Shown in pieces: positions 23,565 to 62,262 of a stretch of DNA of 64,000 nt (positions are counted from its first letter, which is position 1; the number at the start of each line of letters is the position of its first letter). A program made the translations under genes and the position numbers. This stretch comes from Siderastrea radians (Eukaryota; Cnidaria; Anthozoa; Scleractinia; Rhizangiidae): assembly GCA_964017195.1 (NCBI GenBank), contig OZ024891.1, forward strand, positions 5,712,994 through 5,776,993, read 5' to 3'. A model generated the notes under the pieces. It was not told the origin of the DNA and made no database searches. It was given only the letters and a program-made list of their open reading frames with translations.

Positions 23565-24476
23565 CTATGCAACCTCAGCTAACGCACCCCTGTTCTGTTC
23601 ACTTTGAAGTGCCTCTTCATATGACGGAGGGAGTTCAAAAGACAGGGTGTAATATGGAGGTGGTGAAGAAGACTGCTCCTCCAGTTGGGAGGACTGAGGG
23701 AATTCGGACTGAGTGTCACCGGGAGTAGTTGATTCCGTAGGGTATTCAGGGGGAGGTACGAAGAATCCCCCTTCACGGTTATTAATGTCTTCAGTACTGA
23801 ATGCTGTATTTTCTACGGCAGATGTGCTGTGGTGAGTTGATCGTCTCCTACTTTGTCTAGATCTCCTTCTTTGTCTAGATCTCCTCCGTTGTCGCTCAAC
23901 GTATCGCTGTCTGCTGTACCTACTTTCTCTTACAAAACAACAGCACAGTATCAGCAGAAATACAGACCCAGTCAAAATGGCGGCGGATAGAAATCCTGCC
24001 TTCGTAAGTAGGACATCTGAACCCTTTTTACATTTTCCTTCTTTGCATTGCTCTCCACTTCGGCAGTCTCTCCAGCTTATACACGGCGATACAGGTAGAG
24101 TAGATGTTGTTGGTTTTGTTGTCGTGAAGACTGCACACCGAAAAATATCTTTACACTTTCCCTCGCAACATCTCAAGTTTTGCTTGGTGGTAAAATTATT
24201 ATAGCAATCTTTATCTGAATAACATGTTTCTGTTCCATAGTTTTTCATTATACACTTCGAATGTTCGCATTTTTTCCCTGCAGGACAATGGCTATCGATG
24301 ATACACGAATGCGAATTACATCTTTGTTTCGTGCTGCAAGTAAAGTCTCTCGTACAGCAAATCTCCCCTGGGTATCTACAATCCGTGTCCTTTGAACAAC
24401 GCGAACTTGCAAACTCAATAAATGACAGACCAGAGATAAGAAGAATGGCCCAAAATCGGCGATATCCTTTCATCAT
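23565..24476 (-). CDS. Gene A: Cys-rich single-pass membrane protein, three PPxY motifs
   Basis: Single-exon 303-aa protein. A signal peptide covers residues 1-25. The ectodomain (27-149) has about 22 cysteines in repeated C-x(4-5)-C-x(5-6)-C blocks. A Thr/Pro-rich stalk follows (117-130), then a membrane span (163-182) rich in cysteine at its inner end. The cytoplasmic tail begins with an arginine/serine-rich stretch (184-213) built of RQRRRS-like repeats, and ends with three PPxY motifs: PPEY 242-245, PPYY 273-276 and PPSY 283-286. PPxY motifs bind WW domains; a receptor or adaptor for a NEDD4-type ligase is inferred. It is the most divergent cluster member, with more cysteines and a different linker, and may be the founder or an outgroup. 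The start was chosen because the first ATG pair directly precedes the signal peptide. No named family is recognised. Confidence 0.85.
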   Translation of the reverse strand: MMKGYRRFWAILLISGLSFIEFASSRCSKDTDCRYPGEICCTRDFTCSTKQRCNSHSCIIDSHCPAGKKCEHSKCIMKNYGTETCYSDKDCYNNFTTKQNLRCCEGKCKDIFRCAVFTTTKPTTSTLPVSPCISWRDCRSGEQCKEGKCKKGSDVLLTKAGFLSAAILTGSVFLLILCCCFVRESRYSRQRYVERQRRRSRQRRRSRQSRRRSTHHSTSAVENTAFSTEDINNREGGFFVPPPEYPTESTTPGDTQSEFPQSSQLEEQSSSPPPYYTLSFELPPSYEEALQSEQNRGALAEVA

Positions 24477-26821
24477 TGTAAAACTGATCGAAGCTCGTCC
24501 GTGATTCTGTCAGCACAATGGAAGTGAACTGCGAAAAAATTTTATACACGCAAGGTTCGAATTACAACCCTTGACATGACACGAAATCTATTGTTTGTTG
24601 AGCGGCAATTAAATGACCCGAGAAAAGTGCGTCAGTAAAATCCACTGAATTGGGATAACGGAGAAATTCGTCAAAATATACATTCGCGCTCGGGAAACCG
24701 GATAGAGCCTCGAATGTCTATTAACGTTGTCATTCTCACCTATTCGACTATTGTCTAATTAAAAAGTCAACAGGACAGAATAATAGACACGCGATCTTGT
24801 TGGCGGATTGTACAGGAGAATGGGTCCGAGACGCAGTTCTGAAATTATTGATTTTATTCAAAGGGACATTGAAGTCAAAGATCGAAGAAACATTGGCGAC
24901 GTTTTCATAAAATGTCATTCCGTACCATTTTAAAACGCACTCTAATATGTAATGCGGCGCCATTTTCTCTGCGTGGCCAGCGCGCGAAACATCTTTGTTC
25001 CAAATCAAACTTGTTTACGAAGTTACTCTCTATTAGTCTCCATTAGCAAGAGTTTAGAAAAACTTCAATATTTAAAGATAGCACTGCCACAATCATATCT
25101 TCGTATGCTGGTGGAAATTACCGGAAATTAAAATTAAAAGCATAATTTTGCTCGTCACACACCACTTGTTGACACGCGAGCAAGGTATTTATTGTAATTG
25201 AATATTTCAATGGATGTCAGAAGGTGATCCTTTGCTGTTTACAAAACACAATCGTCTCCAAGAAGTTGAAAAATCATTTTCGCCACCTCGTGTTCTGAAA
25301 CCAGATTTTTCACGCTGATTTTAATTTTGACCTTTGCAGTAGACTTCACGAGGAGGAAAACAAAAGCCCTAGGAAATATTATTTTAAACCTACACGTTAG
25401 AAGGATACGAGAAAAGCTTGTAAACAGTAAAGCGCAGGAAATATTTATATTTGAGTGGCTTCACCCTCAGCAAGTTGAGTATCTTTCACCTTTACCCTGA
25501 GATAAAAGAATTCGAACCTCTTCAACAGTGAGGGTATGAGGGAGGGGTGGGGGGGGGGGCAAAGAATCGCCAGTTTCCAACCTCTGTTACAGACCAAAGA
25601 CATTAAGCTGAACTAGAACAATTCTTTGTCCCCTCCCACCCCCTAAAACTCTCACTGTTGAAGAACTTTGAATTCTTTTATTTCGGGGTAAAGCTTAAAA
25701 ATAATGAAATTCTTTAATTCTTTACAGGTATCATTAAAAATAATAAAAACCACATTTGTAATTGATTTTTTTCAGGATTAACAAACTTTTATAGGGATTC
25801 TTAAGGGGTACTTGCAATTGGTTGGAGTGGTGCAGATTTCAGTAGCAATAGACTGATTTCAAAAATGTACGGAAACGTTGCCTGTATCAATGGTTTGCCT
25901 TTGCTAGCTAGGAAGTGGAGAAAGAAACATAAGGAAAAACGACAAAGCACATCAAGTATTGCAACAGACCAGTGGGTTCTTTTCCATATGAACAGGGGAC
26001 TGTCATGAGACATTAACAGAAGAGGTTCCTGGAAATTATAAAGCCCCAAGTGACTTCTGATGAACTGCTAAATTCCCCTTGCAATTTTCCTTATGTATGT
26101 ATGTAAATCAAAGGGAGAATTTGATATTAGATCAGTAGTCACTTACAGCCTTGTATTCCACGCACCCCTTCAACAATCCCAGCGCATGGACAAAAAAGAA
26201 GACTTAATCCCAGTGCTTTAGATTGAAAGCCAGCCATTCCTGATGCTACTTTTTATAATCAAACTTGTGGCAAAGGTATTACACTTATCACATTACGAAA
26301 TGAAGATGTCTAATCAATAGATAATGCCACCACAAATGTTTCTTTTAATTGAAAGGCACTGTTTTTAGATGTTTCTTGATCCCCCTAGAAATGTACATGG
26401 AAAATATTGGATCACAGTGTATTTGAAGTCTTATACTAATTGTACAAAATTCTTTGTTGTGTAGGAAAACTTCTCTCTCTCCAAGTAAAATTCAGATTTA
26501 CTTACCAGAAAAAAGGATTACTGGTTACAGGCTCGTATGAGAAAAAAAAAACAAATATGTATCATGTTCCAAGTTACAAGGAAATGAAAATAATGTATAC
26601 CTACTTTAAAACCAAAGGGTTTTGTTTTATAAAAAATATATGAATATATGTTACATTACTTTTAAACCTCTATTTGCATACTTTGGGTTGAAATATATAC
26701 ATTTTATCAGTTCTAATATTTACAACCATGTTGTCAATGACTCTGCGCCATCCCTGCTAAATAATATACTAGTACTCCCAAATTTACACAACTTCTTGTT
26801 TCCCTCAGAGCCTCACTATTA
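24477..26821. other. Intergenic DNA, no gene recognised
   Basis: Upstream flank of gene A and AT-rich spacer. A G-rich run is near 25550 and an inverted pair of about 25 bp around AAGAATTCRAA occurs at about 25500-25690. No convincing coding frame is seen on either strand. Confidence 0.4.
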
Positions 26822-28000: not shown

Positions 28001-28759
28001 TCACGCTCTATACTGTGGGACTTCAGCATTTCTGACGGCCTCATCATAACTCGGTGGAGGCTGTTCTGGTAAGTCCTCGTTGCCATTTTGTCTGTTATCA
28101 AATGCCAGCGAGTTATACGGCGGAGGGGCACCCGGGGGTAGTGGAGTTTCGTCTTCAACTTCGACCACAGTTGTGTTGGTTGCAGTTCCGGGTTGCATTT
28201 CATGTCCATTTCCTCTAACCGCAGCGACACCTGTAGGTGGCGCAGGTACATTGCCATTCCGTGCGGCGAGCACCGGCGGTTTTCTAGCTCTCTTGCACAA
28301 GTGGTACAAACACGAAATTATAGTCGCTATAATCACGAATACTACTATTCCCACGACCCTACCTCCGCTCCAAGAAAACCCTCCCCCGCTTCCACCTTTG
28401 ACCACGCAATATCCATCTTCACAAGTCTCGTGTTCTTGGCAATCGCTGGACCAAGAACAGTAGTAGTCTCTAGGTTCGTAGGTGGGAGGTTCGACAGGAT
28501 CCCAGGTAGGAAAGTTGATCGTATAAACAGGCCGTAGGGTGGATCTTCGAATATAGCAGGACCCTCCGCTACATGTCTCCCAAGACTTGCAATCGGTGTC
28601 GCTGAAACACAAGCAACGGCTCTGGGAATCTTGAGCACACCTTCCTGTCGCACAACATTTGCGGCTTGTACACTGAGAATCCCACTCGCATGATTGCGAT
28701 TGGACACTACTAGTGTAGCAAATCAAGGCCAATCTCAACGAAAGCGACCAAATATGCAT
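28001..28759 (-). CDS. Gene B: Cys-rich single-pass PPxY membrane protein
   Basis: Single-exon 252-aa protein. The signal peptide is 1-22 (starts MHIWSLSL). Cysteine module 1 covers 24-68, with a CC pair at 45-46 and a C-L-C triplet. A Pro/Tyr-rich linker includes FPTWDP. Module 2 covers 101-118 with four cysteines in the pattern C-x3-SDC-x5-TC-x3-GYC. The membrane span is about 134-154. The tail has PPVLAARNG, VVEVEDE, PPPY at 212-215 and PPSY at 235-238 within PPSYDEAV. It is the first gene of the five-gene cassette B-C-D-E-F and the counterpart of G and L. A conserved block lies 111-137 bases upstream (28870-28896). The family is unrecognised; WW-domain binding by the tail is inferred from PPxY. 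Confidence 0.86.
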   Translation of the reverse strand: MHIWSLSLRLALICYTSSVQSQSCEWDSQCTSRKCCATGRCAQDSQSRCLCFSDTDCKSWETCSGGSCYIRRSTLRPVYTINFPTWDPVEPPTYEPRDYYCSWSSDCQEHETCEDGYCVVKGGSGGGFSWSGGRVVGIVVFVIIATIISCLYHLCKRARKPPVLAARNGNVPAPPTGVAAVRGNGHEMQPGTATNTTVVEVEDETPLPPGAPPPYNSLAFDNRQNGNEDLPEQPPPSYDEAVRNAEVPQYRA

Positions 28760-28869
28760 TCAACTCTGTAGTGACTCCTAAAGGGGACCAAATATGATGA
28801 AACCCTACTCACAACACGACGCAGTAAAAGACCAATTGAACAAAGAACACTCGACTTCGTGTAAGCTGT

Positions 28870-28896
28870 CCAATTCATCCGTTTGTTCTTACGTCA
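28870..28896 (-). promoter_or_regulatory. Conserved upstream block of gene B
   Basis: Read in gene direction, this has TGACGTAAG, then ACGGATGAATTGG: a CRE-like TGACGT half-site followed by an inverted CCAAT. Similar blocks lie at a similar distance upstream of D, E, F, G and H. A regulatory role is inferred from this conservation. Confidence 0.4.
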
Positions 28897-28897
28897 T

Positions 28898-30097
28898 GGT
28901 TGCCATAGGAACGATGGCAGAATTGGAGCATTACAAAATGTTCTTTTTCTGGTTCATTTCGTATTTCGTGATGTTTCCAAAACAGAAACGTATATCCGGG
29001 TCTTACGCACTGCATGCAACATGTACGATCTGATTATTTTATTTTGTCCATTTATATCAAGCGAAGCTGAGCAAAACTGCTCATTGATCACTCAAATAAA
29101 AAAAGAAACCGTGTTACCTGGATAAATTATGCTGGTAATGATTTACTATGCCTGCCAAAAGAAAGTCGTTGTTAAGCTCAAAATTCTGCTTGTTTGTAGT
29201 GAATTATGCTCGTATTATGCTCGGTAAAATACCAGCGTCATTCCCTTTGGTTAGTCACGTTTCGATAAAATCGCTGGATCCTTGTCACTCTCTGACTTTG
29301 GACCGCCTAACTGCATGGGAGAAGGGATGTGAATAAAATAAGAGCATTTCTCTTTCTCTTCCTCTATTTGATGCCTGATACTTGAAATGAATATTAAATT
29401 TTCTAACAGGGTATGGATTGTCACTCGATGAGTCTAAGATATGGTAAGGACTTCTTGGTGTCTAGACTAGCATAGGATTGTAAAATGCAGCCGAACATGG
29501 TCAGCAATGGGATAGGAGTCCCAAAAGTGCATCCCACCCAAAAATTACAGAGTACCCCCCCCCCCTCCACTCAGGAAACGCACCGTTTCAGACGGGTGAT
29601 TCGTCTGAACGGATTATCCGTCTCTGATATCAATTGACCCACAAAAAGTAACATAAAACGTAGTAAAAACAACGAACAAAAAGCCGGAAGAGTTTCGTGC
29701 CCTTTATCAATTACTGAAAAAAAAGAGCATTTGTCTAAGTTAGCCGAAGAAGATTCTTACATATTTGGTGCATGTCTACTCAGAAATGAGGCTATTTAAG
29801 TTCTTAGATACAGTTCTCTTGTTTTTATGAGGAAAAGTACTTGGTGCTCATCACCAGAGAAGGTGACAGGAGGTTCTTCATTGAATCGACTAGATTAACC
29901 GTTCATCACTACATACCACTATTTTTTTGTGTGTGCTCTCGGGACAAAAGGGAGGGGGGGCACTCGGAGAAAAGGGACTGGTAGGTGCAAGTAAATCCAA
30001 GAAACTATCCATGTGCTAAAAGTAAATAACGTTAAGTCAGGGGACTACAGCAAACTAGTTGGTAAAACGAAGAACAAAAACTGAGCCAACAATACTC
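28898..30097. other. Intergenic DNA, no gene recognised
   Basis: Upstream flank of gene B; about 28900-29000 resembles the flank of gene G at 45130-45210. The rest is AT-rich with a run of C near 29555. No coding frame can be supported. Confidence 0.4.
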
Positions 30098-30583: not shown

Positions 30584-30765
30584 GAATACTAAGCAAAATT
30601 TTCAACCTTCCCCCTCCCCCCCCTCCAGAAAAAAGAAACAAGGAAACAAGGAAACAAAATCTCACATTTCACTGATTCCCTCCGCCACCCCCCTCCCCCC
30701 CCAAAAAAAAACACCTTTGCCCCGTTCCGTCGTTCAAAAAGTGGCAGAAGCTGTCGCCTACACTG

Positions 30766-31019
30766 TGGGGCGGGACAGGGGGGTGGGAGACCGGGAGGAA
30801 AGGGGGCGGGAGGTGTACGGGAGGCGGGACAAGAGGGGGCGGGAAGCGGGATTCCCAAGGTAGCGGGAAGCGGGAGAAAAAGGGAAAAATTACACAACAT
30901 TGCGCAATATTTCGCAATCGAATAAATGCAAAGGGGCGGGAGCCAAAAAATACAGGGCGGGAACCGGGATTAAAGGGTACGGGAAGCAGGAGGTTTAAAC
31001 CCCCCTGTCCCCCCCCCCA
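30766..31019. mobile_element. GC-rich hAT-like MITE, copy 1
   Basis: The 254-bp element has inverted G-rich ends (TGGGGCGGGACAGGGGGG and its near complement). Perfect 8-bp target duplications CTACACTG lie at 30758-30765 and 31020-31027, as for hAT elements. The interior is built of short GCGGGAAGCGGGA-like repeats plus ATTGCGCAATATTTCGCAAT. A second copy disrupts gene F at 42153-42387. Confidence 0.85.
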
Positions 31020-31365
31020 CTACACTGAGGGCATTTATGGGGACGGGGACAAGGCGGTGACGGACGCCGCTCCTTTCCACGGCCCCCACGCAATTTGATT
31101 TAGCGTTCGCTCTTAGGCCAGGCTAGAAGAAGAGGGGAAAAATACTCACATGAATCAGAAGGAGGACTGGAGCATGAACATTCGGAGGAGAGGCTTCAAA
31201 GTTAACCAGCTTTCCACACTCAGGCCTCTCCACCGTATGCTTTGTGTTATTATTCCGATCCTTATAAACAAAAATACTGCAGCTTCAAGGGTAGCTGTAG
31301 CTCATGCGACGGTTCTAAGAACGTTATTCGTTGTATAGCCTGTGAACAGGCTCCTTAGTGGACAT

Positions 31366-33287: not shown

Positions 33288-34209
33288 TTAAACTATTCCG
33301 GAAATTCTGATAGCTTCATCGAAACTCGGTAGAGGCTGTTCTGGTAAATCATCGTTTCCATTTGGTCTGCTCTCAAACTCCAGCGAGTTGTACGGAGGAG
33401 GGGCATCCTGGAGTAATAAAGTGTTGTCTTCAACTTCGATCACAGTTGTGTTAGTAGCAGAAGATTCCGACTGCTCTTCGTGTTCATTCACTTCAGATCC
33501 AGATGGCGCGTCTCCCGTCGAGGGAGCGGTATTTTCATCCATTGAGAGTTCTCTGCGTACCTGTTCAGCTTGCTGGTGTCGTGATGATGCTATTCCGCCA
33601 GCTCTTTCAGCTCTTCTGGCTTCCATTATTCTAGCTATCTCAGCTCTTCTAGCTTCCGCAGCTCTTTCAGTAGCTCTCTAAGCTCTTCTAGCGGCTCTCT
33701 GTAGCCAAGCAAAACGTGCACCGCCCGCTAATAAACAAGCAAATACTGACACCGACACCAGCACAGCTATGTCATAATGTTTTTCCTCAAAACTATTTCC
33801 CTTAGCCTCCTTCTGAACACAGTTCCCGTCCTGGCATGTAGAGCTTCCTCGGCAATCGCTGTCCCATACGCAGTAGTAGTTTTTAGGGCTGTGCCTGAAT
33901 CTTTGACTGGGTAAAACGCTTCCAAGGGCGAGAGGTGGATGTTGAAGGCTTGACGGTGAATAATGGACGTTTACGGCAGGAATGACCTACACAGTCCTCG
34001 TACCAATAGTCACAGAAGGAGTCATCCTTACACCAGCAACCCTGGCGATAATATGTAGGGTATGTTATACAAGTACCGGTTCCTTTGCAACATTTCTTGG
34101 CCCCGCCGTCACACTGGGGATCTCGGTAGCAACGGATTTTCGCCTGCACGCTAACAGTGCAGCAAATAAAGGCCAATTGCAAACTCAACGAAAGCGACGA
34201 AAAATACAT
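33288..34209 (-). pseudogene. Gene C: Cys-rich PPxY membrane protein, disrupted
   Basis: The family architecture is complete but split over frames. From 34209, a signal peptide (MYFSSLSL) is followed by cysteine module 1 with a KKCCKG pair. Reading then shifts at about 33890-33900 to a second frame with module 2 (CVWDSDCRGSSTC) and a membrane span ending near RFAWLQ. An in-frame TAG at 33678-33680 interrupts an Ala/Arg/Glu-rich juxtamembrane repeat (ARRAE units), after which the tail is open. The first tail motif PPPY is kept; the second is degraded to PLPSF. The frame also has an ATG at 34227. It is the counterpart of fragment I. One frameshift and one stop argue for a pseudogene, although sequence error cannot be excluded. 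Confidence 0.75.
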
Positions 34210-36610: not shown

Positions 36611-37734
36611 CATGTATTTCTGTTGTTATCTGTCGGGCAGAATATTAATCGTGATGACCGCATCGTACTAACATACTGTTTTCTGCTTTGGCTGGGCATT
36701 ATACACTTGACACTATAGTTTATACTGCTTACACTGAGCAATATTTTTTCTAGGCCGTTTATTGAAAGAGGAGTTTCATTTTCCCTCTCAGATAAATTTT
36801 TTTCCTTACTCTCTCTCTCTCTAGGGACGTCTGCCGCATGGAGCGGACTACGTGCTTTGCTCAGCACAATTCTGGTTTTCTTTCACTCTGCATGCGTTTT
36901 GTAAGTCAATAAGTCGAAAAAAGCGTTCCCGCGATCATTAAAAGCGACACCGAAGGCGCTCCAATTTTGTGAAATGTGGTCTTCGGTTACAGTTAATAAT
37001 AAGCCATGGGTAGATTCAATCTACCCTTAGCCTAATTTGCACAAATTTTTTTGGTGGCCTGAGTTTGTTATGTGTATCGTTCTGTATCAAATTCATTTGT
37101 TTGTATTTGCGTCATAGTTGCAGTGCATAGAATTAAAGCAATTTGAATAAATTTCTAAATCAGGCTTAACTTAAGAAGCAACGCAAAGCACTGGGCGATT
37201 TTATACCCTCACCGCGTGAAATTCATCGCTGGTGATGGCGCCGGTGATGACTGACACCAAGCTCTGCATTCGTTGCTATTGGAGCTCGTGGCGTACTCAC
37301 CATATAGCTAGTACCTGAGTGTTTACTCTTTCCTCGTTGTCTGCGAAAAGTCAGAAGCCGCGCGAAGAGTAGGGTGTCTTGTTCGGTGTAAGAAAGTGGA
37401 ATCCAGGCCTAAATCAAAACCAGCTGGAAACGTATAGTGAATAGGAAGAGTTTCCATATATTATACAAACAAGCATGCTGATACACCAAAATCTCAATAT
37501 CCGAAAAGGAAAACCAATGTGAACGTTCACAAATTAACGTTTTTGAAATTGACTGAGCCGATTTCTTCCTCTAAGCGGAATAAAAATTCAAGAGATTTTG
37601 TTGATTTTAATTAAGCTGTAAATAGGACCCGAGACAGAAGTTTTCATTTGATCTTTTTATACAACCGGGTCTGCGGTCTGCAGCGTCCATTTACTCTTTA
37701 ATTTGTTTGCAATGTGCGTTTTCATTCAGTGACG
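36611..37734. other. Intergenic DNA downstream of gene D
   Basis: No gene is seen. From about 37090 onward it matches 46790-47420 as part of the segmental duplication. It includes the GGTCTGCGGTCTGCAGCGTCC-like motif found downstream of D, E, F, H, J and K. Confidence 0.5.
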
Positions 37735-38448: not shown

Positions 38449-38517
38449 TAAACTCTAAAACGTCTACAAAAAAAGACCTAAACAAATATGTTTTCGTCTT
38501 GATGCAGAACGTCGTGG

Positions 38518-38565
38518 TAATGTATAAACACTTATATTCTAGTTCGTCCGCTTGTGTCTACGGCA
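38518..38565 (-). promoter_or_regulatory. Putative promoter of gene D
   Basis: In gene direction, a GTAGACACAAGCGGACGAACT block is followed by GTGTTTATACATTACC, a TATA-like motif about 80 bases before the ATG. The same order occurs before gene J and, with variation, before E and F. A short 5' leader with no intron is inferred. Confidence 0.4.
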
Positions 38566-39087
38566 TCGCTCACGCAGAAAACCGCACGTTGAATTAGAAT
38601 ATTTTTACGAAATGTACTTGAAGCATAAAATTTATACACGGATTTTACTTTGCGGAATGGCGAGTTTTGCGGCATTTCGACCAATTTTGAACTACTCCTC
38701 ATAGTCCTTTAACTACGTCAAGGTACGAAGCATTTCATCAAAACATTGATCTCAACTTTTGGTTGGTCTGAGCTTAGTCCTATGGTGCTAACAACGTACA
38801 TGGCGGACCTTGTCACGCGCGATAACGTCATGTCCCCCACTTAACTATGATTTTTAAACTCATAACGCTTTTTCGATTCGCCTTTCTGAAACATCAGTGT
38901 TGCATGCCAATCTCAGAACGTTTGCAGGAACACGTTTTATTCAAATGCAACTTTGCCATATAAATCAGCGATTGTAAGTAGGTTACATATCTAATTAGCC
39001 TGAATAAGACGTTTTGCATGGTCCGCGGTCTGCAGCGTCCATTTATTCCTCAGCTGGGTTTGCAATGTGTATTTTCATTCAGTGAAT

Positions 39088-45124: not shown

Positions 45125-45159
45125 ATAGTTGCCATAGGAACAGAGCTTAAATTGGAGCA

Positions 45160-47421: not shown

Positions 47422-48138
47422 CTATGCGGTCATTGCAGAATCCCTGACGGCCTCATCGTAGCTTGGTGGGAGATGTTCCGGTAAAACATTATGACAGTTC
47501 TGTTCGTCCTCCGTTCCTAGGGAATTGTATGGCGGAGGGTCAGCCGGGGGGAGTGGACGATCAGTTTCCATTTCGATCACAGTAAAGTCGGCAGCATCAA
47601 CTTCCGACTGCGTTTCGTCCAAGGATGAAAATGTAAGCTCGTGAACTTCATTCGTGTGAGACCCCGACTGCAGTTGCTCCAAGGGTCGTGACTGGCTATG
47701 ATTCTTCATTAACAGACACAAAACGATTAACTGAACAATTACAAGAAGAGCAGCGCCTATTACTATCGGCAAATACACCCAGTCGCCGTGAGAAGAATCA
47801 TATGCGCACTTTCCTTCTTGACAAGCCTCGTCTCCTTTGCAATCACTGTCCGAAAGACAGAAGCGGTGATTATACGTTAAAGGTTCAGGGGTGGTGAATG
47901 TAGGCCGCGTTTTTTTGTAGCCGCAAAATCCTTTTGAGTTATCATTAGAATAACACGCTTCTCCAACCTTGCAATCGCTGTTGTCATAACAAGGGCAAAG
48001 GTTTTCCATTGCACACGTCTGTGTCGCAGCACAACATTTCCTGCTATCACACTGATGATCCCAGAGGCATGGCTGCGATTGGATGCTGCCAGTGCAGCAC
48101 GTCAAGGCCAAAGCCAAAGGAAACAGCCAAACATGCAT
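47422..48138 (-). CDS. Gene J: Cys-rich single-pass PPxY membrane protein
   Basis: Single-exon 238-aa protein, close paralogue of D. Signal peptide 1-22 (MHVWLFPL). Module 1 covers 24-72 (CLWDHQCDSRKCC, CPCYDNSDC), module 2 covers 94-111 (CLSDSDCKGDEACQEGKC). The membrane span is about 120-144 with no charged residue, unlike D. The tail has IEMETDRPLPP, PPPY at 201-204 and PPSY at 224-227. It is the only member of the second cassette, besides G, that is fully open. Differences from D are mostly single residues, and reading frame and all cysteines are kept, so both copies appear functional. Confidence 0.88.
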   Translation of the reverse strand: MHVWLFPLALALTCCTGSIQSQPCLWDHQCDSRKCCAATQTCAMENLCPCYDNSDCKVGEACYSNDNSKGFCGYKKTRPTFTTPEPLTYNHRFCLSDSDCKGDEACQEGKCAYDSSHGDWVYLPIVIGAALLVIVQLIVLCLLMKNHSQSRPLEQLQSGSHTNEVHELTFSSLDETQSEVDAADFTVIEMETDRPLPPADPPPYNSLGTEDEQNCHNVLPEHLPPSYDEAVRDSAMTA

Positions 48139-48765
48139 TAAACTCTAAAACGTCTACAAGAAAGACCTAAACAAATATGATTTCGTCTTGATGCAGAACG
48201 CCGTGGTAATGTATAAACACTTAGTTCGTCCTCTTGTGTCTACGGCATCGCTCACGCAGAAAACCGCACGTTCATTTGGAATATTACGAAATGTACTTGA
48301 AGCATAAAATTCATACAGGGATTTTACTTTGCGGAATGGCGAGTTTTGCGGCATTTCGACCAATTTAGAACTACTCCTCATAGTCCTTTAACTACGTCAG
48401 GGTACGAAGAATTTCATCAAAACATTGATCTGAACTTTTTGTTGGTCTCGGAGCTTAGTCCTATGGTGCTAACAACGTACATGGCGGACCTTGTCACGCG
48501 CGATAACGTCATGTCCCCCACTTAGCTATGATTTTTAAACTCAATAACGCTTTTTTGATTCGCCTTTCTGAAACATCAGTGTTGCATGCTAATCTCAGAA
48601 CGTTTGTAGGAACACGTTTCATTCAAATGCAACTTTGCCATATAAATGATTGTAAGTAGGTTACATATCTAAGTAGCCTGAGTAAGACGTTTAGCATGGT
48701 CCGCGGTCTGCAGCGTCCATTTATTCCTCAGCTGGGTTTGCAATGTGTATTTTCATTCAGTGAAT

Positions 48766-49304
48766 CTATGTAGTCATTGAAGGGTGCCTGACGACCTCTT
48801 CGTCGCTTGGTGGGAGATATTCTGGTAAATCATTTTGACAATTCTGTTCCCCTTCCGTTCCTAGGGAGTTGTATGGCGGAGGGCCATCCGGTGGCAGAGG
48901 AGAATCGGTTTCCACTTCGATCCGAGAAACGTCAGCAGCAACAGATTCCGACTGTACTTCGTCTAAGCATCGAAATGAGGTCCCGCGCATTTCATTCGAA
49001 GTAGAGTCGCAGTCCAAGGGTCGTGACTGTCGTGGAATTGCACCTGTTCCCCATTGAGTTTGCTCGCTGGGTGGTGCACAGCAATATTTTCTAAAACAAC
49101 AGGTGATTAACCCAGCAATTATGAAGAAAAAAACTCTGAAAGAAAGGCCACTGGGCTGATAGAAGCATCCTTAGAGCGTACACATTGTCCCTCACGGTTA
49201 CATAACTCTCCTTATTTGCAGTAACGATCCCTGCATGACTGCGATTGGACGCTGCCAGTGCAGCAAATCAAGGCTAAACAAAACGAAAACAACCCAATAT
49301 ACAT
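48766..49304 (-). pseudogene. Gene K: degraded paralogue of gene E
   Basis: From the ATG at 49304 the signal peptide matches E (W4 replaced by G). A TAA at 49212-49214 stops the frame in the ectodomain. Indels in the membrane span (near 49125) shift the frame. The tail is open from 49017 with PPPYNSL, but the second motif reads PPSD, so its tyrosine is lost. The length of 539 nt is not divisible by three. Confidence 0.85.
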
Positions 49305-49419
49305 AAAACTCTAGAACGTCTACAAAAAAAAAAGAAAACTCTGAATATGATGTTTTCCTTAATGCCGAACACCGTGGTAATATATAAACACTAAAATTCC
49401 AGTGACTTCTCCAATTTGT

Positions 49420-49710
49420 CACTAAATTTCGCTTCCGAGCAAAATGGCTCACCAGAAGATCGATATTTCTCTTTCTACATAACATATAAAGGTTTATCAG
49501 ACCATAAAGCTACGTAAAACTGAAAATAATATATACACCAAAATGGATTAGAGAAAGTAAAAACACTCGATACATGCTCTTTGATGTAGCCATCTTTTCA
49601 CACGACAGCTTCTAAATTTAGCCGCAGGCGGGCTGGCCCGCCTCGTGTAAAACCGGGCTGAGCATTCATCTCGGTAAACCGAGCCAGCCCGGCTCATGTA
49701 ATCGGCCCCT
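49420..49710. mobile_element. Partial MITE related to 26919-27390
   Basis: It shares AAATGGCTCACCAGAAGATC and the right end GCCAGCCCGGCTCATGTAAT with the element at 26919-27390. The left terminus is missing. It is absent at the matching place in copy 1. Confidence 0.65.
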
Positions 49711-51060
49711 TATTTGGGAACCAGGCAAGAAAACTACACGTGGACTACACTACGACTTCGCTCGAGGAATGGGGAGACTCGCGGACTGGGGAGATCTAGT
49801 TTCTTGTCAGTCAGAGTATCCCCCAGTGACCATGAGGTCCTGTTCACAGGTTGATTTCAAAATCACTTTTTCCATTACTAACTGCTGTCCCCCCAAACTA
49901 AGACTTAAAATGTAGACCTCGAGTTGGCTACTTCCGTGCGCTTAGCCATGCAGCGTTTTCTCAAAACGTTAATCTTACCTTCTTGTTGGTCACGTTCCCA
50001 TGCTCCAAACGTACAGTTGACCTCGTATCGTGCACGATTAGGTCATATCTCCCATTTTATTTTCAAGATTATGATACTTAATACTGGTAATTTACAGGTC
50101 CTTGATATAAATTTTAAATTCAATGCTTTTCCCCCTAAGGTTGCTGCTGAACACGTTACGTGCCAAATTTTACGGCACTTTCCTATTACATGCAATTAAA
50201 AAATAAATAATTATGAGTGGGTGACGCATATATAACTTGCCTTAGTAAAAACTTTTGGTTTGTTTATTCATTTGGTCTGCGGTCTGCGGTGTACAATTAG
50301 GCCAAGGTCAAACGTCAAATTCTACATGTGGGGAACCTAATGCAAATAAGCATTAATCTCGGCACGTGAAAAAGTACGACATTTGGCCTTAGTCTTACTC
50401 TTCACCTGGTTTGCAAAGCGGTGTGTTTTTATTCAGTGAAACTATGCAGTCATTGCAGAATCCCTGACGGCCTCTTCGTAGCTTGGTGAGAGCTGTTCTG
50501 GTAAATCATTATCACAATTCTGCCCCCCCCCCCTCCGTTCCTAGAGAGTTGTATGGCGGAGGGTCATCCGGGGGTAGCAAAGAATCACAGGTTTCCACTT
50601 CGATAACGGTGACGTTGCCAGCAACAGATCCCTACTGCCTTTCCCCCAAGAATGCGGATGGGATCTCACCGACTTCATTCGTAGTAGATTCATAGCCCAA
50701 GGATCGTGACTATTGTGGACGTGTGCGTGCTCCCGACTGCTCTTGCTCCAAGCGTGGTAAATGTTTTTCAAAACAATGCATTAATACACAAGCAATTAAA
50801 GAAGAAGAAACGATTACTGCTCCTGGTACATACACCCAGAGGCTTATAGAAGAATCATCTTCATTATATGCGCATTGTCCGTCTTGACAAGATTCTACTT
50901 CTTCGCACTCACTATCCGAGAGACAGTAGCGGTTATAGTCTCTGGTGACCTTGGGGTGATTATAACGTGAGGGTTTAGAGTTGGTGATTGTAGGCTGCAG
51001 ACTTTTGAGGTCGCAAAATGCTCTTGAAATATTGTGATAATAACACGCCTGTCCATCCTT

Positions 51061-51477
51061 CAGGGGCACCCAAAGAGAAAATTTTAGCAAAATACTTGAA
51101 TATCATTTCCTTCTTTCTTACATTGTTTCAGAGCTTTTTAAAGGAATATTTGTGTAGGCTAACACAGATTGATCTGTTCGGATTTCTTAGCTCAAAATTT
51201 AGGCTGCAGAAAATTTTAGGAAACAGAATCCCATCAGCCGAATTTCCGAGCTGCTGATGGCTCTCCGAAAATGCTAGCTGACCTTATTTTGTACTCTAAA
51301 CGACATATTTGTCCCTCCGAAAACAATAGGAACTAATAAGTCATCTTGTTACGAAAGTACGACGTGATGTTTCGCCGAAGAAATCTCTAGCTTTCACTGC
51401 AGTTAAATCCGAAAATCTCAGGCTAGTCTAGGCCTTCCGAACAGATATTCCCCAAAACTAACCGTTGGGTGCCCCTG
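51061..51477. mobile_element. MITE in gene H, CAGGGGCACCC ends
   Basis: The 417-bp element has ends CAGGGGCACCCAA and its complement (TTGGGTGCCCCTG). It is flanked by identical 6-bp ATCCTT (51055-51060 and 51478-51483). The empty site is seen once in F (TCCATCCTTGCAATCG). No coding frame is seen. The ends are hAT-like, although 6 bp is short for that group. Confidence 0.9.
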
Positions 51478-51555
51478 ATCCTTGCAATCGCTGTTGTGAT
51501 AACATGGGCAAACCTTTTCCGTTGCACACGTCCATGTCGCAACACAGCATCTCCC

Positions 51556-51820
51556 CAGGGTGGTAACGAGGTATGTTTTTACAATGCTGATCCAATTTTT
51601 GTACGCAAATTTCTAATCCTTGATTCCAAAAGCGTGACCAATTTTGGTCCCTGATCCTACAAATATGGTACAGCCTGATCCCTGATCCCTAAAATAACTG
51701 CTGATCCCAATCCCATGGTCTCTGATCCCTGATCCCAGGGCTGTGATTCCAGATCCCACCCTTCTGATCCCTGATCCCACCCCTTTGATCCCCGATCCCA
51801 TATACCTCGTTACGACCCTG
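51556..51820. mobile_element. MITE in gene H, CAGGGTGGTAACGAGG ends
   Basis: The 265-bp element has imperfect inverted ends (CAGGGTGGTAACGAGGTAT and the complement of ATACCTCGTTACGACCCTG). It is flanked by 7-bp ATCTCCC on both sides (51549-51555, 51821-51827); F shows the single empty site. The interior has repeats of TGATCCCTGATCCCA. Confidence 0.88.
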
Positions 51821-51923
51821 ATCTCCCGCTATCACACTCATAATCCATTTCGCATGGCTGCGACTGGATGCTACCAGTGCAGCAAATTAAGATCAAACTC
51901 GAGGAAAACAACCAAATATGCAT

Positions 51924-53183
51924 TAAACTCTAGGAAGTCTACAAAAAGGAACAAAACACTGAATATGGTGTCTTCTCGATGCAGAATGCCGCCGGTAATG
52001 TACGAACACTCCACTTACCAGTAACCTCTTCAATTCGTCCGTTTCAGGTCTACGTCATCTTTCACATGGAAACCGTGCTTCAAAATTGGAAAATTACGAA
52101 ACTTATTTGAAGTATGAAATTAAATGGGAAGACAAATTTCTGTTTCCCAGACGAACAATTTCCGGAGAAAACGGAATCTTTTTAAAAGTAGGTGCGTTCC
52201 ATTGATCATTTCAGTACCAGTTCCAGTCAAACTAGCTCCAGATTCTCTTTAAATTAGAGTGAACTGCGCAAATGGCACATGCTAATATCGAACGGAATTT
52301 GCCATTCGGGAGGTTTTGCTCACCATTTGCACAAACCGTAGACCAACCGGTTTCCCCCTATAAATGGTAAACAACCTTGGACTACCTCTCATGCAAGAGG
52401 TTCCGTTTATTTGACAAATTTTTCGGTCGGGCAAATATACCATTTAGATTCAAACGAAATTTCCGGATTTTTGTGTTAATGGTAAATCCTTGATGTGTTG
52501 CTTGTCATGGTTGCCGGTGAGCTCAAGCACGACTTCCAGAAAAGTTGTTAGACGTTTTGCGTACTTCATTTCCTTACTGAGTTCGGTGTCTTATTGGCTA
52601 TAGTATGACTTCAAAGCATAGTCGCAAAAAACTCGGGAAAAAATCACGAGCAATGCGAGTGACTCCGAAATTGTTTCAGCTTCAGTTGTTGGCAGTTCCA
52701 CTTGGCTAAATTATCTTCCCATCTCTGTGCTTTTATAGTTGATAAAATGTACGTTGTAGTTTCATTAACTATTGAGCATTTGTATTCTAAAGCACTAGCA
52801 TAATTAATAATTTAACCCCATCCTATAGAGCCCATTTGGTACGAAGTGTCACTGCAGGCACATTTCACGGGGTACTAGCAAAGTACTAATGCGGAACTGA
52901 GTAAAAAATGACGGAAGTTCAGTACCTTAGTCAAAAAACAAAATTAAATTTTCAATTCAAATCTAGAATTTTCGAAACACCTGTAACGTAAATCAGTGTT
53001 TTCTCAAGTGGTCCATGACTTCGCGCACACTTTTGCATAAATTCGTGCACAGATCTTGAGGGTCACAAAGTTGACCTTTGTAAGCTCTTCTTTAGTTTTA
53101 CTTTGGTTTTTATTTATATTCCAACGTAAGATGAACAAATGAAGAATGTGTATGAGTTGTAAATTAACAAAAGAGGCGTCGAT
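51924..53183. other. Intergenic DNA of duplication copy 2
   Basis: It matches 42838-44333 without the palindrome. It includes the conserved upstream block of H (about 52030-52056). No gene is supported. Confidence 0.5.
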
Positions 53184-53837
53184 TTAGATCATCGTTTCAA
53201 AATTCCTGACTGCCTCGTCATAACTTGGTGGGGTATTTTCTGGTAAATCCTCGTTTCCATTTTGTCTGCTCTCAAATGCCAGCGAGTTGTACGGTGGAGG
53301 GGAATCTGGGGGTAATGAGGTTTCGTCTTCAACTTCGATCACAGTTGTGTTGGTTGTAACAGTTCCAGGTTGCATTTCATGTTCATTTGCTTCAACCGCA
53401 GCGAGACCTGTCGGTGGCGCGGGTAAGTCGCCATTCCGTGCGGCGAGCACCGGCGGGTTTCTAGTTCCCTTGCACAGATGGTAAAAGCACCAAATTATAA
53501 TCCCAACAACAAACAGAAAGATGACCAAGGATACTGTTATTCCCCCGATGTGGCCTATGCTCCTCCAAGAAGTTTCCCCACTGCCACCTTTGTATCCCGG
53601 GTTGTATACGCATTCTCCGTCTTCGCAAGCCTCGTCATCTCGGCAACCGCTGCTCGTAACGCAGAACCTGGGTACTTTAAATGTGGGAACATCGTAAGGA
53701 TCAATATTCCAAGAAGTGTAAGGATCTCAAGTAGGTATATTGAACGTATAAAATGTCGGTCGGGTGAATCCTCCCGACTGGACACAACCAGTCCAGCAAA
53801 TCAAGGCCAAACTCAACGAAAGCGACCAAACATGCAT
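53184..53837 (-). pseudogene. Gene L: paralogue of G with one nonsense codon
   Basis: From the ATG at 53837 the frame is 654 nt (217 codons plus stop) and complete except for one TGA. This replaces the tryptophan of the IPTWDP linker conserved in B and G (TGG to TGA, near 53730). Signal peptide MHVWSLSL, module 2 (CVTSSGCRDDEACEDGEC), a membrane span around ITVSLVIFLFVVGIIIWC, and a tail with PPPYNSLAF and PPSYDEAV are all kept. It begins a third cassette. It could be a very recent pseudogene, a polymorphic null or a sequence error. Confidence 0.75.
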
Positions 53838-53870
53838 CCAACTCTCTACGTAGCAACCCCGAAAATAAAA

Positions 53871-54826
53871 GAAATATGATGAAACCTTCCTCACAACATG
53901 TTGTAGCCTGCGTAGCAAGCCCGTTTCCGTGGGTTTTCCGCCCGTTGGAGACATTTTTCTCTTTTTGGCCGCCGCGCAAATATCGGGGCGAGCGCAAAAA
54001 CGTGCGAGAAAAATCCCGGTATACAAACGAAAGACATTTTTCAGTCCAGTGCCGGATAGTTTTAAGCGTTCATAACTGGGACGGGCTTTCATGTATTAAA
54101 TCTTCCATTCGTAGTTAACAGATATGATATTTCGTACATTTAACTGGCATTCTCCGAGGAGAGGTTTCGCCTCCTTCTACGGTCTCCGTTTTACACTAAC
54201 CGCACTTCACCTTGTATGGTCACGCAATGAAGAGGCAAACATTACTTGAACCAAGAGCTGGGATTCCAAAGCTCCAAATTCGTATAGGCTACAAGCAGTC
54301 TCCCTTTGCGCTCTAAAGGGATAATCGGAGCACACACTACACTAGCACCTCGTCACGCGCTCGTCACGTTTCAGCGCGGCAGGGGATTTTCGTGATCACT
54401 GGTGTGTTCAGTCTTTCCTAGACTACACCCTGAGCGGAAAGAGAGACTGCTCGTTGACTACGAATCTGATTTCATCTGCAAAACATACAGGCAACGGAAT
54501 GAACCTTCATACCCTATGCATACCACGGCACTTAAAGGCTACCAAACGGTTGAATATATTTTGTACGTAAGTTAAGCTCAAAAGTTGAACTTTTAGCCCT
54601 TGGATTATACATTACCGAGAGAAACACCCGTCATTTAAAGTTTTTACTTCCCCGTTTACTTCTCATGCACTTTTCCTTTCTTCTTGTAAAAATAGGGAGC
54701 TTAAGCAACTACAACGGCAACGCCAAGGAAAACATCAATTTAATAAACCACAACAACTCATGTGAAGACAAACTGGTCTCAGCTTCGCGGTTCAAAGCCA
54801 CACAAAAAAGTTCAGTTTTCAGTGGC
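53871..54826. other. Intergenic DNA after the duplication
   Basis: The similarity to copy 1 ends near 53890, and the GCCTGCGTAGCAAGCCCGTT sequence that follows looks repeat-derived. No gene is supported. Confidence 0.4.
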
Positions 54827-56710: not shown

Positions 56711-57727
56711 TTAGATCATCGTTTCAAAATTCCTGACTGCCTCGTCATAACATGGAGGAGGCTCTTCTGGTAAATCCTCATTTACATTTTCTTGTCTCTC
56801 AAACTCAAGCGTGTTGCATGCCAAAGGAGCATCTGGGAGGCACGAAGAATTGTCTCCAACTTCTACCACAGATATAAAAGACCCTGATTGCACCTCATGT
56901 TCATTTGCACCAGCTGTCCTGTCTCCTATCTGATCTGTATTTTCATTTCGTTTCCCAGTCAATGGCAGTAAGACTCCGTTTGTATTTTGTCGTTTCTCGA
57001 ACTGTAGCGAGCTGTAAGGCGGAGGACCACCGGGAGGCAATGGGGAATCATCTTCAACTTCAACCACAGCAGTTTCTGATTGCATTCCATGTCCATTCGC
57101 CGCTCCAGATGTCGCGACTTCTCCCAGGATTGTACCTGCTATCACATGCCGTTGTGCAATTTGCTGGTGCCACGATTTTGTAATGGTTTTCATACACGAT
57201 CTGATGCCGATGCAACAAAATATTATTAAATGTATAACTACTGCCGCGGCTATCAAACCTGGGCGTATTACCCTTTGTGTGGTTGGAGATGCATCATAAT
57301 TTTCGGCCCTCTTCTGAACACATTTTCCGTCTCGGCAGGTTGAATTTGCTCGACAATCACTGTCCCAGACACAATCCTTGTTGTGAGGTTTAAACGAAAA
57401 CTTCTTATTCGTAAACGGTTTCCATACAAAAGGTTTGTCATTCTTCCTGCTAAGTGGATTTGTGGTGTAAGGATGTTCAGTAGATGACTGGAGTTCATCC
57501 GCATAGCAGAAACCTGGCATTTCCCCCCCTCTATAGCTACATTTCTCTCCAAAATTGCACTCAAAGTCACTTTTACACGGGCAATCCCTTCTGGTAGTGC
57601 ACGTCTTTGTCGCCATGCAGCATATTTCATCCCAGTCACTATCACACTGATAGTCCCAGCTGCATAATTCTGAATGTGCAATGACAATGCAGCTGATCAC
57701 CGCCAAAAAAACCCACCAAATACGCAT
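56711..57727 (-). CDS. Gene M: PPxY membrane protein with duplicated tail module
   Basis: Single-exon 338-aa protein, the longest member. Signal peptide 1-19 (MRIWWVFL). Module 1 covers 22-74 (CSWDYQCDSDWDEICC, CPCKSDFEC, GEKCSYRGGEMPGFC). A long basic/aromatic linker (86-116) leads to module 2 (119-136, CVWDSDCRANSTCRDGKC). Membrane span about 157-175. The tail carries the family unit twice: VVEVEDDSPLPP with PPPY (235-238), then VVEVGDNSSCLP where the PPPY is decayed to PLACN, followed by the terminal PPCY (324-327, PPCYDEAV). M, N, O and P share an upstream or tail type distinct from A-L. The tail duplication is seen directly; its effect is unknown. Confidence 0.87.
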   Translation of the reverse strand: MRIWWVFLAVISCIVIAHSELCSWDYQCDSDWDEICCMATKTCTTRRDCPCKSDFECNFGEKCSYRGGEMPGFCYADELQSSTEHPYTTNPLSRKNDKPFVWKPFTNKKFSFKPHNKDCVWDSDCRANSTCRDGKCVQKRAENYDASPTTQRVIRPGLIAAAVVIHLIIFCCIGIRSCMKTITKSWHQQIAQRHVIAGTILGEVATSGAANGHGMQSETAVVEVEDDSPLPPGGPPPYSSLQFEKRQNTNGVLLPLTGKRNENTDQIGDRTAGANEHEVQSGSFISVVEVGDNSSCLPDAPLACNTLEFERQENVNEDLPEEPPPCYDEAVRNFETMI

Positions 57728-58764: not shown

Positions 58765-59534
58765 CTACGCTTGTGAGTTGAACACAAAGAAAACTGGAAA
58801 AGGCCGCGTTGATTCAGACCGTGACCGCAGAGTCTGACTGACTGCCTCGTCATAGCTTGGTGGAAGCTGTTCTGTTAAATCCTGGTTTCCATTCTCCTGT
58901 CTCTCGAATACAAGCGTGTTGTATGGCGGGGGAGTTTCTGGGGGAACCGGTAAATTTCCCTCGACTTCTACCACAACGGTTCCCGATTGCATTTCATGTG
59001 CATTCTCTCCAAAACTAGTAATTTCTGTCTGTGTTAGAGGCTCTCTGATCGCTTGCACAGTAAGATGAGTTCTTCTGGTTCTTCTTCTAGCTTTCTTGCG
59101 CATGACTGAGCACACAACATAAATTAGCGCCAACAGTACAACGAACGATATGACTGTCCCTAAGGCTATGCGATTGACATAATGAACGCATTTTCCGTCT
59201 CTGCAGGTTAAGCCTCCTCGGCAGTCGCTGTCGTATACACAGTAGTTTTTCTCAGGGCTTAATGTAGGGTGTTCAGTTGATGATGGTACCTCAGCCTTGT
59301 AGCAGTAGCCTGCCGCTTCTCCTCCGCTACTGAATTACACTTTCCCCCTTCATTGCAAACAAGGTCGCTTCTACACGGGCAATTCCATCTAAAAGCACAA
59401 GAGTTTAGCGATAAGCAGCATATTTGACCCCCGTAACAGTCACTATTCCAGCCACATGATTCGGAATGGGCAATACCATAGCAGCTGATCACAGGCAGAA
59501 TCAACGAAATCACCCTATCTACCCAAATATGCAT
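58765..59534 (-). pseudogene. Gene N: M-like PPxY gene with one frameshift
   Basis: From 59534: signal peptide (MHIWVDRV), module 1 (CGWNSDCYGGQICC, CPCRSDLVC, GGKC). The frame then shifts by one base near 59330, inside the GGEAAGYCY segment that matches GGEMPGFCY of M. The other frame continues with SSTEHP, module 2 (CVYDSDCRGGLTCRDGKC), a membrane span around VISFVVLLALIYVVC, and a tail with PPPYNTLVF and PPSYDEAV to the stop at 58765. Apart from the single-base shift everything is intact, so sequence error or a very young pseudogene are both possible. Confidence 0.75.
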
Positions 59535-60525: not shown

Positions 60526-60880
60526 TCAGACAGTAAAAGCAGCGTAACTGACAGCCTCGTTATAACTTGGTGGAGGCTGTTCTGGTAAATCCTCGTTATC
60601 ATTCTCCTGTCTCTCGAATACAAGGGTGTTGTACGGCGGAGGAACATCTGGAGGTACCACGACAGTTCCCGATTGCATTTCATGCACATTCGGCGCTCCA
60701 GAAGTGGCAATTTCTGTCTGTGGATGCCCTCTGAGCGCTTGCTCAGCTGGCTGATGTAGTGATGTTTTTCTGGTTTTCTTGCATATGAAGTACGCAAACA
60801 ACGCCATAACGAACGACACAACTACTACTATGATTAAGATACCCCCAAACCCTTTTTTGCCCTTCTTTACAATATAAACG
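60526..60880 (-). pseudogene. Gene O: tail and membrane span only
   Basis: An open frame holds a membrane span (GGILIIVVVVSFVMALFAYF) and a complete tail very like that of N: HEMQSGTVVV, PPPYNTLVF, PPPSYNEAV. It lacks the signal peptide and both cysteine modules. Homology stops at about 60880, close to a 56-bp palindrome and an AT repeat, so the 5' half was probably removed by a rearrangement there. Confidence 0.78.
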
Positions 60881-60948
60881 AATAAACAAGAAATAAAATT
60901 GCTTCACTTATCCTAAGAGTGCTCAATGCAGAAATATGCAGAGCAAAA

Positions 60949-61100: not shown

Positions 61101-61104
<4 letters not shown>

Positions 61105-61527
61105 TTTGCGGTTAGAGTTTTCTTTTGGAAGGAAATGGTGAAAATTTAAGGGAATGTAAAAGGAACGGTCATAAGCCATTTCCATGCCAAGGAAACATTG
61201 TTTCCCACTCGTTTGCGGGCCCAAGAAACTTCCGCAACAATGTTTCCTCGTTTGCGGGGGCCTCTACAATCAAATTATGATACAGAGAATCTGCAGAATA
61301 TAACTGATCTTTCTTTTCGCGCATCGTAAAAAGCAAACATTTCCGCATGCCATGCAGTCAGGCTCAGGCTGGTAAAGGCCTCGTTGAGCCAAAAACCGGT
61401 TTTGGTAATGTGATCCTGTTATAGGAATACACAAGGTAGAGATTTTTGTGCCCGTTTATATATACGAACGTTTACCGTTTTGGCTGTTGTTATTGTGTCT
61501 GGTGGCCGGTTGTGTTTTGTTAGTTAG

Positions 61528-62262
61528 TTACGTAACTGTTTCAGAATTCCTCACCACTTCGTCCTAACTTGGTGGACGCCGTTCCCGTACAAAATATTCG
61601 TTTCCATTTTCCTGTCCGGCATGGAATGCAAGCGTGCTGTTTGGCGGTGGAGAACCCAGGGACAATGGCGAACTGTCTTGAGCTTCCACCACAGCAGCAG
61701 ACCCCTATTGCATGTCACGTAGATATTCGCCAGATGACACCACTTTCGTCGGGGATGTCAGTCTCCATACACAGGCAAGATCACTGGCTCTGTGAGCATT
61801 GCCAGTTGATTGGCTGGTCTGCCGATCACAAGCGATGATATTTCTTTATAACCAACACATATACGGTATAGAATGTAAAAACAAACAACACAAAAAACAG
61901 AGAAAATAATTATCCACAAAATCGACATGTTCTCTTGCCGTCTTCGCAAGTTTTTCTTCTCCGTGGAAACGTTCCTGAGGGAAAGCTAATCCAGGCGGAG
62001 CTCAAGCTTAATGACGTCGTTAAGAGCTCAGTGGTTCGCCAGAATCCACCTGAATAGCTGTTGAATTCTCCCTGCAAACCGTGTCGGTTTAAGACAAGCA
62101 TTCCGGATTCAACTAGCAAGTCCGTTATCGTTGGCTAGCATATTTTTTATTTATTTATTTTATGTGACGATGAGATCCCATGCAGTGGCAGAAAAAACAT
62201 AGGGAAAAACAAGTACAGCCGATATACAAGCCAATTTTGCCAGAAAGCGACCAAATATGCAT
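61528..62262 (-). pseudogene. Gene P: strongly decayed PPxY membrane protein gene
   Basis: Recognisable pieces in order: signal-peptide start MHIWSLSGKIG (ATG at 62262), a cysteine remnant (RKTCEDGKRTC, near 61920-61950), a membrane span (ILWIIIFSVFCVVCFYILY, near 61860-61920) and the tail. The tail keeps VVEAQDSSPLS and GQENGNE. PPPY has become PPPN, and PPSYDEAV has become PPS-stop-DEVV. Several frame changes separate the pieces. It is the oldest-looking and last member of the array. Confidence 0.78.

Follow-up and report, generated by a model that had tools for sequence, protein, structure and literature searches.

Single-pass membrane proteins with cysteine-rich ectodomains and PY-motif tails that bind ubiquitin ligases of the NEDD4 family are an already known kind of protein, represented by the Shisa-like/STMC6 class, CYYR1, WBP1L, PRRG4, and Commissureless (Comm). 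To our knowledge, the known PY-tail adaptors (WBP1L, Shisa, PRRG4, and Comm) come as single genes or small families. In the present study, we analyzed an array of genes for proteins of comparable build in a 64-kb stretch of DNA containing no N (contig C5, 5712994-5776993, of an 805-Mb assembly of 439 contigs), which is called the window below. The genes of the array share common descent, encode a constant tail attached to varying ectodomains, and have been multiplied in blocks of DNA.

Among the systems used for comparison, the PRRG proteins carry a Gla domain, the fungal RCR proteins are without a cysteine-module ectodomain, and LDLRAD4 and PMEPA1 are membrane-anchored PPxY adaptors of NEDD4 ligases with an LDL-receptor class A module. 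In the literature consulted, no description of a fitting cnidarian family of this kind was found. In the relevant passages of PMC5578492, most Shisa-like proteins are described as having six cysteines in the order C*C*CC*CC and roles in trafficking, Comm as a single-pass Nedd4 substrate adaptor whose ectodomain contains no cysteine, and Rcr1 as binding Rsp5 via cytoplasmic PY motifs, while the tail motifs of Comm and PRRG4 are given as GLPSYDEAL and GLPSYEQAV, respectively. That the adaptor role of Comm depends on PY is stated in the abstract of another paper. A passage of PMC6991692 reports that WBP1L has three [L/P]PXY motifs, binds several NEDD4-family ligases, and regulates CXCR4, limiting its signaling, and one of PMC2582799 presents PPxYxxL as an extended PY motif of the ENaC subunits that binds the Nedd4 family.

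Organization and extent of the array

When the seven intact proteins, A to G, were used as tblastn queries, 16 clusters of matches were obtained in the window (23568-61761), every one on the minus strand, as a sequence-only reading of this DNA had stated. Two of the clusters, 50445-51060 and 51478-51926, belong to a single interrupted copy, and the 16 sites therefore hold 15 copies, all on the minus strand, of which seven are intact and eight broken. The earlier count of about 16 members was thus right as to the seven intact ones but one too high in its nine broken ones. Its description of the genes as intronless holds for the coding frames of the intact copies, each of which runs from ATG to a stop codon without internal stops, and an intron might still exist in the 5′ untranslated region. 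The copies are as follows.

A, 23565-24473, minus: intact, 302 residues; conserved end-of-array lineage with 28 relatives (35-97% identity).
B, 28001-28759, minus: intact, 252 residues; PT-rich stalk between a 10-Cys module and a 4-Cys unit; one membrane helix; tail with PPPYNSL and PPPSYDEAV.
Broken copy, 33291-34173, minus: frame change and internal stop.
C, 37735-38448, minus: intact, 237 residues; sister of F.
D, 39088-39627, minus: intact, 179 residues; ectodomain of a single 4-Cys unit; one PPxY plus LPEY and LPSY.
Broken copy, 41806-42840, minus: unrelated sequence separates the membrane span from the tail; internal stop.
E, 44334-44978, minus: intact, 214 residues; without module 1, one 4-Cys unit remaining.
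F, 47422-48138, minus: intact, 238 residues; block-duplicate of C.
Broken block-duplicate of D, 48769-49304, minus: frame change and internal stop.
Broken copy in four pieces, 50445-51926, minus: block-duplicate of the 41.8-kb copy.
Broken block-duplicate of E, 53187-53840, minus: one internal stop.
G, 56711-57727, minus: intact, 338 residues; tail segment duplicated; first PY box degenerate in its second copy; two PPxY remaining.
Broken copy, 58771-59534, minus: frame change; its block-duplicate H73, outside the window, has an open frame.
Partial copy, 60529-60903, minus: the match covers the membrane span and tail only.
Broken tail remnant, 61534-61761, minus: two stops.

The array had been taken to end at 62262, but it continues beyond that point, where the same strand carries further family copies as well as related genes. 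The 40 kb after the window contain additional copies, including the open frames H73 and J89 and a divergent member, X, and related genes extend to about 57 kb past the window, where Y lies. In the window and the following 70 kb, none of the 242 tblastn matches lies on the plus strand. These further genes are listed in the continued numbering of the window, except for X.

H73, 73682-74425: open frame beyond the window.
J89, 89600-90361: open frame beyond the window.
X, L034:8857-9660: divergent member beyond the window.
Z, 109359-110126 (L038; C5 about 5.822 Mb), same strand: single frame; Cys-rich and single-pass by eye; no PPxY; acidic tail end.
Y, 120796-121482 (L039; C5 about 5.834 Mb), same strand: single frame, Cys-rich, apparently single-pass; two PPxY; Pfam WBP-1 match.

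A search of the whole genome with B gave 22 matches at E ≤ 0.001 (all 34 candidates scored), and all of them lie on the minus strand of C5 at 5740997-5802751, that is, in one locus. The same search with A returned A itself and one weak match to G (E 2.5e-4), and that with X returned X only; neither has another strong copy in the genome. The strand bias is also visible in the tail motif itself, since 23565-62262 encodes 30 PPxY on the minus strand and three on the plus strand (overlapping matches counted), whereas 60 first-order Markov sequences averaged 2.3 per strand and never exceeded 6. Two of the 30 (25114 and 25545) are outside the family copies and one is within the stalk of B.

A constant tail on varying ectodomains

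Searches with B gave 37 related proteins, including ones from Oculina patagonica and Desmophyllum pertusum, and those with A gave 28, including Oculina ACROYT_G036476. A profile search gave 36, of which 10 had already been found and 26 were new; the new ones include one from Porites harrisoni, 18 X-type relatives that span 87-100% of X, and some fragments. The resulting 91 relatives were labeled B-, X-, or A-type according to the search that found them, and they were collected by homology, PPxY being no criterion, though words in the tail aided detection. At least two PPxY are present in 86 of the 91 (40 of 43 B-type, 18 of 20 X-type, and all 28 A-type), and PPxYxx[LVI] is present in 88. The five exceptions to the former are the ectodomain-only fragments P0060 and P0063, P0039 with its changed tail end, and the X-type P0040 and P0056 with one PPxY each. 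Short contigs with several member sequences are the source of many relatives (e.g., P0013, 124); these may be transcripts, and no conclusion is drawn from them.

In an alignment of 40 sequences (A2), the mean fraction of the majority residue is 0.77 in the first PY box and 0.86 in the second, while it is 0.39 in the stalk, 0.52 in Cys module 1, and 0.62-0.68 in the membrane span, the 4-Cys unit (0.66), and the signal. These values bear out the earlier claim that the tail is the most conserved part of diversified surface proteins, and they support the view that the window genes form one diversified family of such proteins sharing a conserved PY tail. The first PY motif has the extended form PPxYxxL and the second the context PPSYDEAV, for which D has LPSYEEVV. 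The “two or three PPxY” read in each tail are found in six of the seven intact members (A, B, C, E, F, and G), with three in A, but not in D, whose other sites are of the LPxY form listed above.

The ectodomain consists of small disulfide units on a Pro/Thr stalk, namely a 10-Cys module and, apart from it, a 4-Cys unit, which resemble units of DUF7107, DPY, and Dickkopf type. In B, the module comprises Cys 24, 30, 35, 36, 41, 49, 51, 57, 63, and 68 and the unit comprises Cys 101, 107, 113, and 118, with the stalk lying between them, and all of these except Cys 35 are invariant or nearly so among the 40 sequences. B, C, F, and G share the order C-C-CC-C-C-C-C-C-C followed by four more cysteines, with no second CC ahead of the span. 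Module 1 is lost in D and E, which have four ectodomain cysteines without CC. A has two CC pairs among 20 ectodomain cysteines, of which 18 are invariant and two nearly invariant in 29 sequences. Beyond the window, the stalks of the 75.7-kb and 86-kb copies contain tandem repeats; the stalk-coding repeats at 75.8-76.6 kb and 85.7-86.6 kb (continued numbering) belong to two family copies and have a repeat unit of about 25 residues, STEQPYTWNP..THKPFTWKPSSLLS.

The signal peptide, Cys modules, and single span named in the sequence-only reading agree with AlphaFold2 models of B and A, both of which show a helix at the N terminus, Cys units, and a single long helix, the signal and span being judged from model and sequence together. 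In the model of B (40 sequences), block values of the predicted local distance difference test (pLDDT) are 76-90 across the Cys units, a helix occupies 132-157, and the tail, which is mostly of low confidence, includes a short helix at 238-245; the mean pLDDT is 68.7. The model of A, with a pLDDT of 57.9, below that of B, shows four two-stranded units and one long helix past the ectodomain.

Comparison with described families

None of the seven window proteins passes a Pfam cut-off. The earlier statement that no named family has this combination of features is partly wrong, as single-pass proteins with a Cys-rich ectodomain joined to a PY tail binding NEDD4 ligases are a known kind, and the neighbor Y passes a Pfam cut-off. 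Among the related genes, X passes DUF7107 (PF23416; 25.1 versus 24.6 bits) and Y passes WBP-1 (PF11669; 28.4 versus 28.1 bits), Y also showing a weak match to Pfam Comm that is under the cut-off (E 0.01). All seven window proteins miss the WBP-1 cut-off (D, 12.2 versus 28.1 bits; the other six not among the matches listed), and B, G, F, and C miss that of DUF7107 with 15.8, 15.4, 14.1, and 13.7 bits, respectively, A, D, and E not being listed. At E ≤ 0.01, DUF7107 is matched by 15 of the 20 X-type sequences of alignment A4 and by 10 of the 40 of A2 (best 2.2e-7), and one A2 sequence matches Dickkopf_N (4.3e-5). The likeness to DUF7107, Dumpy DPY, and Dickkopf N-terminal units is one of Cys spacing, at the domain level only. 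Pfam PRIMA1, a proline-rich membrane anchor, is matched by four of the 20 A4 sequences at E ≤ 0.01 (best 7.6e-5).

Among the closest described classes is that of the Shisa-like/STMC6 proteins, nearest among them WBP1/WBP1L/VOPP1, with which the window members share a signal peptide, a short Cys-rich ectodomain, one span (signal and span again as judged from model and sequence), and a PY tail. Their cysteines do not follow the six-Cys pattern C*C*CC*CC, and for this reason we do not file them under STMC6, although they probably work like members of that class. With Comm and PRRG4 they share a PY box of LPSY type in a membrane-anchored tail, PPPSYDEAV in the window and LPSYEEVV in D, but they possess Cys units, whereas Comm has none and PRRG has a Gla domain, for which no match is listed in the Pfam scan. 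The fungal RCR family (Rcr1/Rcr2) matches B over the span and tail (E 0.0018), under the cut-off (19.4 versus 27.8 bits; the other six window proteins not listed). LDLRAD4 and PMEPA1 are likewise membrane-anchored with a PPxY tail, but an LDL-receptor class A match is listed for none of the seven window proteins in the Pfam scan.

Relatives and phylogeny

B-type proteins are homologous to A-type (hhalign probability 99.9, E 2.3e-31), X-type (99.0, E 2.6e-18), and Y-type proteins (98.9, E 1.5e-17). A tree was made from 50 of the 91 relatives and 14 genes or pieces of the present genome, with a midpoint root for drawing only; D, J89, P0091, P0032, and P0012 have long branches. X groups with X-type relatives and A with A-type relatives, in both cases inside starred clades and as orthologues. 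The genes flanked by them, called middle genes below, form two groups: C, D, F, B, E, and the 53-kb copy lie near P0002-P0006, and P0008 is almost identical to E. The second group, consisting of G, J89, 58/H73, and 60/75, stands beside the A clade, weakly (85/61). Genome labels change seven times on the tree (the starred branches force five), versus a mean of 12.8 after shuffling, and none of 500 shuffles was as low. The middle genes are thus clustered by genome, yet they are not one clade, and the timing of their expansion appears to have been lineage-specific.

The A-type Oculina gene ACROYT_G036476 and the B-type ACROYT_G036469 and G036470 are both on contigs of 33484490 nt, which suggests, from gene numbering and equal contig size rather than a map, that A-type and B-type genes are neighbors in Oculina too. 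The X-type relatives part abruptly after EEQV, suggesting a possible splice site there.

Growth by duplication and selection

The middle genes have grown in number via multi-gene DNA duplication. One of the blocks and the upstream segment discussed below are the following.

Duplicated block, left copy, 37073-39742: partner 46775-49420, 89% identical, offset 9702.
B upstream segment, 28760-28920, minus: aligns with the upstream sequence of other middle genes; RFX-like GTTCCTATGGCAAC, then TGACGTAA, then GAATTGG.

The genes next to the duplicated block recur too, with their order unchanged and offsets of 8.7-9.1 kb, pieces in 41033-45036 matching 49709-53897. In addition, 58139-60871 matches 73097-76138 in two pieces, and 61093-62753 matches 86925-88560. 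We considered a retrogene origin of the middle genes and rejected it, because the sequence preceding the ATG can be aligned by eye, over as much as about 150 bp, in most of 14 copies and several genes were duplicated together as blocks; both features indicate copying at the DNA level. A and X have no visible share of this upstream segment. In B, it contains what we take to be an RFX X-box-like site, then a cyclic AMP response element (CRE)-like site, then ATTGG, an order that resembles X-X2-Y of major histocompatibility complex class II promoters. Matches to this RFX/CRE/CCAAT-like promoter module at −200 to −60 were counted in 16 copies: GTTNCCATGGNAAC with at most two mismatches in five, TGACGTNA exactly in two, and GAATTGG exactly in five. 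Such counts are not independent evidence because the copies share descent, and few middle copies keep all three motifs.

Tandem duplication is common in the two coral genomes treated in a passage of PMC10236652, and dark gene families arising by duplication in stony corals are described in one of PMC13044578; the passages on these subjects in the two papers make no mention of the present family.

The ratio of nonsynonymous to synonymous substitution rates (dN/dS), calculated by the Nei-Gojobori method for six paralogue pairs with bootstrap 5-95% ranges, is 0.64 for C/F, 0.57 for E/53 kb, 0.69 for H73/58 kb, 0.61 for 75/60 kb, 0.65 for B/E, and 1.33 for D/48.8 kb. Four of the six pairs include a broken copy, and the range excludes 1 in two pairs only (E/53 kb and B/E), so constraint between paralogues is weak. 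Positive selection is not seen in these pairs, the ratio being below 1 in five of them and, for D/48.8 kb, having a range that includes 1. For C/F, the sole pair split by domain, dN/dS of the mature ectodomain is 0.57.

Possible function of the family

The locus is best explained as a tandem family that evolves by birth and death and encodes type I single-pass membrane proteins; the genome is stony-coral-like, to judge from the relatives in the stony corals Oculina, Desmophyllum, and Porites. On balance, we think it likely that the products serve as PY-tail trafficking adaptors akin to WBP1L, Shisa-type proteins, PRRG4, and Comm. The ectodomain, the membrane span, or both would bind a partner membrane protein, and the paired PY motifs would engage the WW domains of a HECT ligase of the NEDD4 family. 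Ubiquitination of the partner, of the adaptor, or of both might then direct them to endosomes and lysosomes, and variation of the ectodomain on a constant tail could alter the choice of surface protein to be removed. In favor of the proposal are the PPxY retained in most relatives, the high conservation of the PY boxes, the homology of the types, the clades of A and X and the clustering of the middle genes, the block duplications, the precedents of ENaC and WBP1L, and the presence of HECT exons in this genome. Several observations weigh against this proposal: the models have low predicted template modeling scores (0.26 for B and 0.18 for A), a Foldseek search yielded nothing significant (best E 0.41), eight of the 15 window copies are broken, and the constraint between paralogues is weak, as shown above. 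In addition, a crude scan for a WW pattern in 30 kb around one HECT gene (L054-L056), which may or may not be of NEDD4 type, found none.

The same architecture could belong to receptors or adhesion proteins whose PY tail governs their own endocytosis and turnover, as in ENaC, and whose ectodomains bind outside ligands such as microbes or neighboring cells. The stalk and module 1 are indeed the most variable parts, and both module loss (D and E) and stalk repeat expansion (75.7- and 86-kb copies) occur; the ectodomains are, however, small, two intact members keep just one 4-Cys unit, and the C/F ectodomain value, from that one pair, gives no sign of positive selection. We regard this explanation as rather unlikely. 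Segmental duplication might also have left the middle array as little more than decaying residue, with only A, X, and Y of importance; this would suit the broken state of eight window copies and the weak constraint, but both PY boxes are present in middle-type relatives among many other sequences, those of Oculina and Desmophyllum included, and this view seems improbable, even though the changed tail end of the Porites relative P0039 lacks PPxY. A quite improbable reading is that the tail serves other WW proteins (YAP/TAZ, MAGI, or WWOX), or recruits ESCRT via a NEDD4 ligase for vesicle release and not for degradation; PPxY motifs do serve several WW classes, as the literature indicates, while PPxYxxL and the double PY resemble known NEDD4 partners.

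If the preferred explanation of NEDD4-recruiting adaptors is correct, an animal group that multiplies such adaptors in one locus offers a natural experiment on the evolution of ubiquitin-ligase targeting, and coral biology gains a defined set of uncharacterized surface proteins with a directly testable tail. A bolder and doubtful extension is that the array is a fast-evolving, lineage-specific coral repertoire of trafficking adaptors, in which each lineage, with one constant NEDD4-recruiting tail on many disposable ectodomains, rewires which receptors, for example those of immunity or symbiont recognition, leave the membrane, the set being flanked by the conserved A and X and sharing a common stock with the WBP1-like Y.

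Other features of the locus

A PIH1-domain gene in two pieces adjoins the array on the plus strand (11977-12426 and 15546-15998; Pfam E 6.7e-17 and 1.6e-14). Beyond the window, in the continued numbering, a tandem array lies within the gene array at 77774-82248 (L032), with a unit of about 152 bp and 93-97% identity in self-comparison, and a 539-residue open frame at 92587-94203 on the minus strand resembles, by eye, part of a retrotransposon reverse-transcriptase protein. The translations of 30676-31098 and 42056-42463 are similar by eye, and because the second overlaps the interruption point of the 41.8-kb copy, a mobile repeat may have broken that copy. The segment 40097-40300 is part of a dispersed repeat, with 54 matches, itself included, listed for 40000-41000 (40 of 98 candidates scored).

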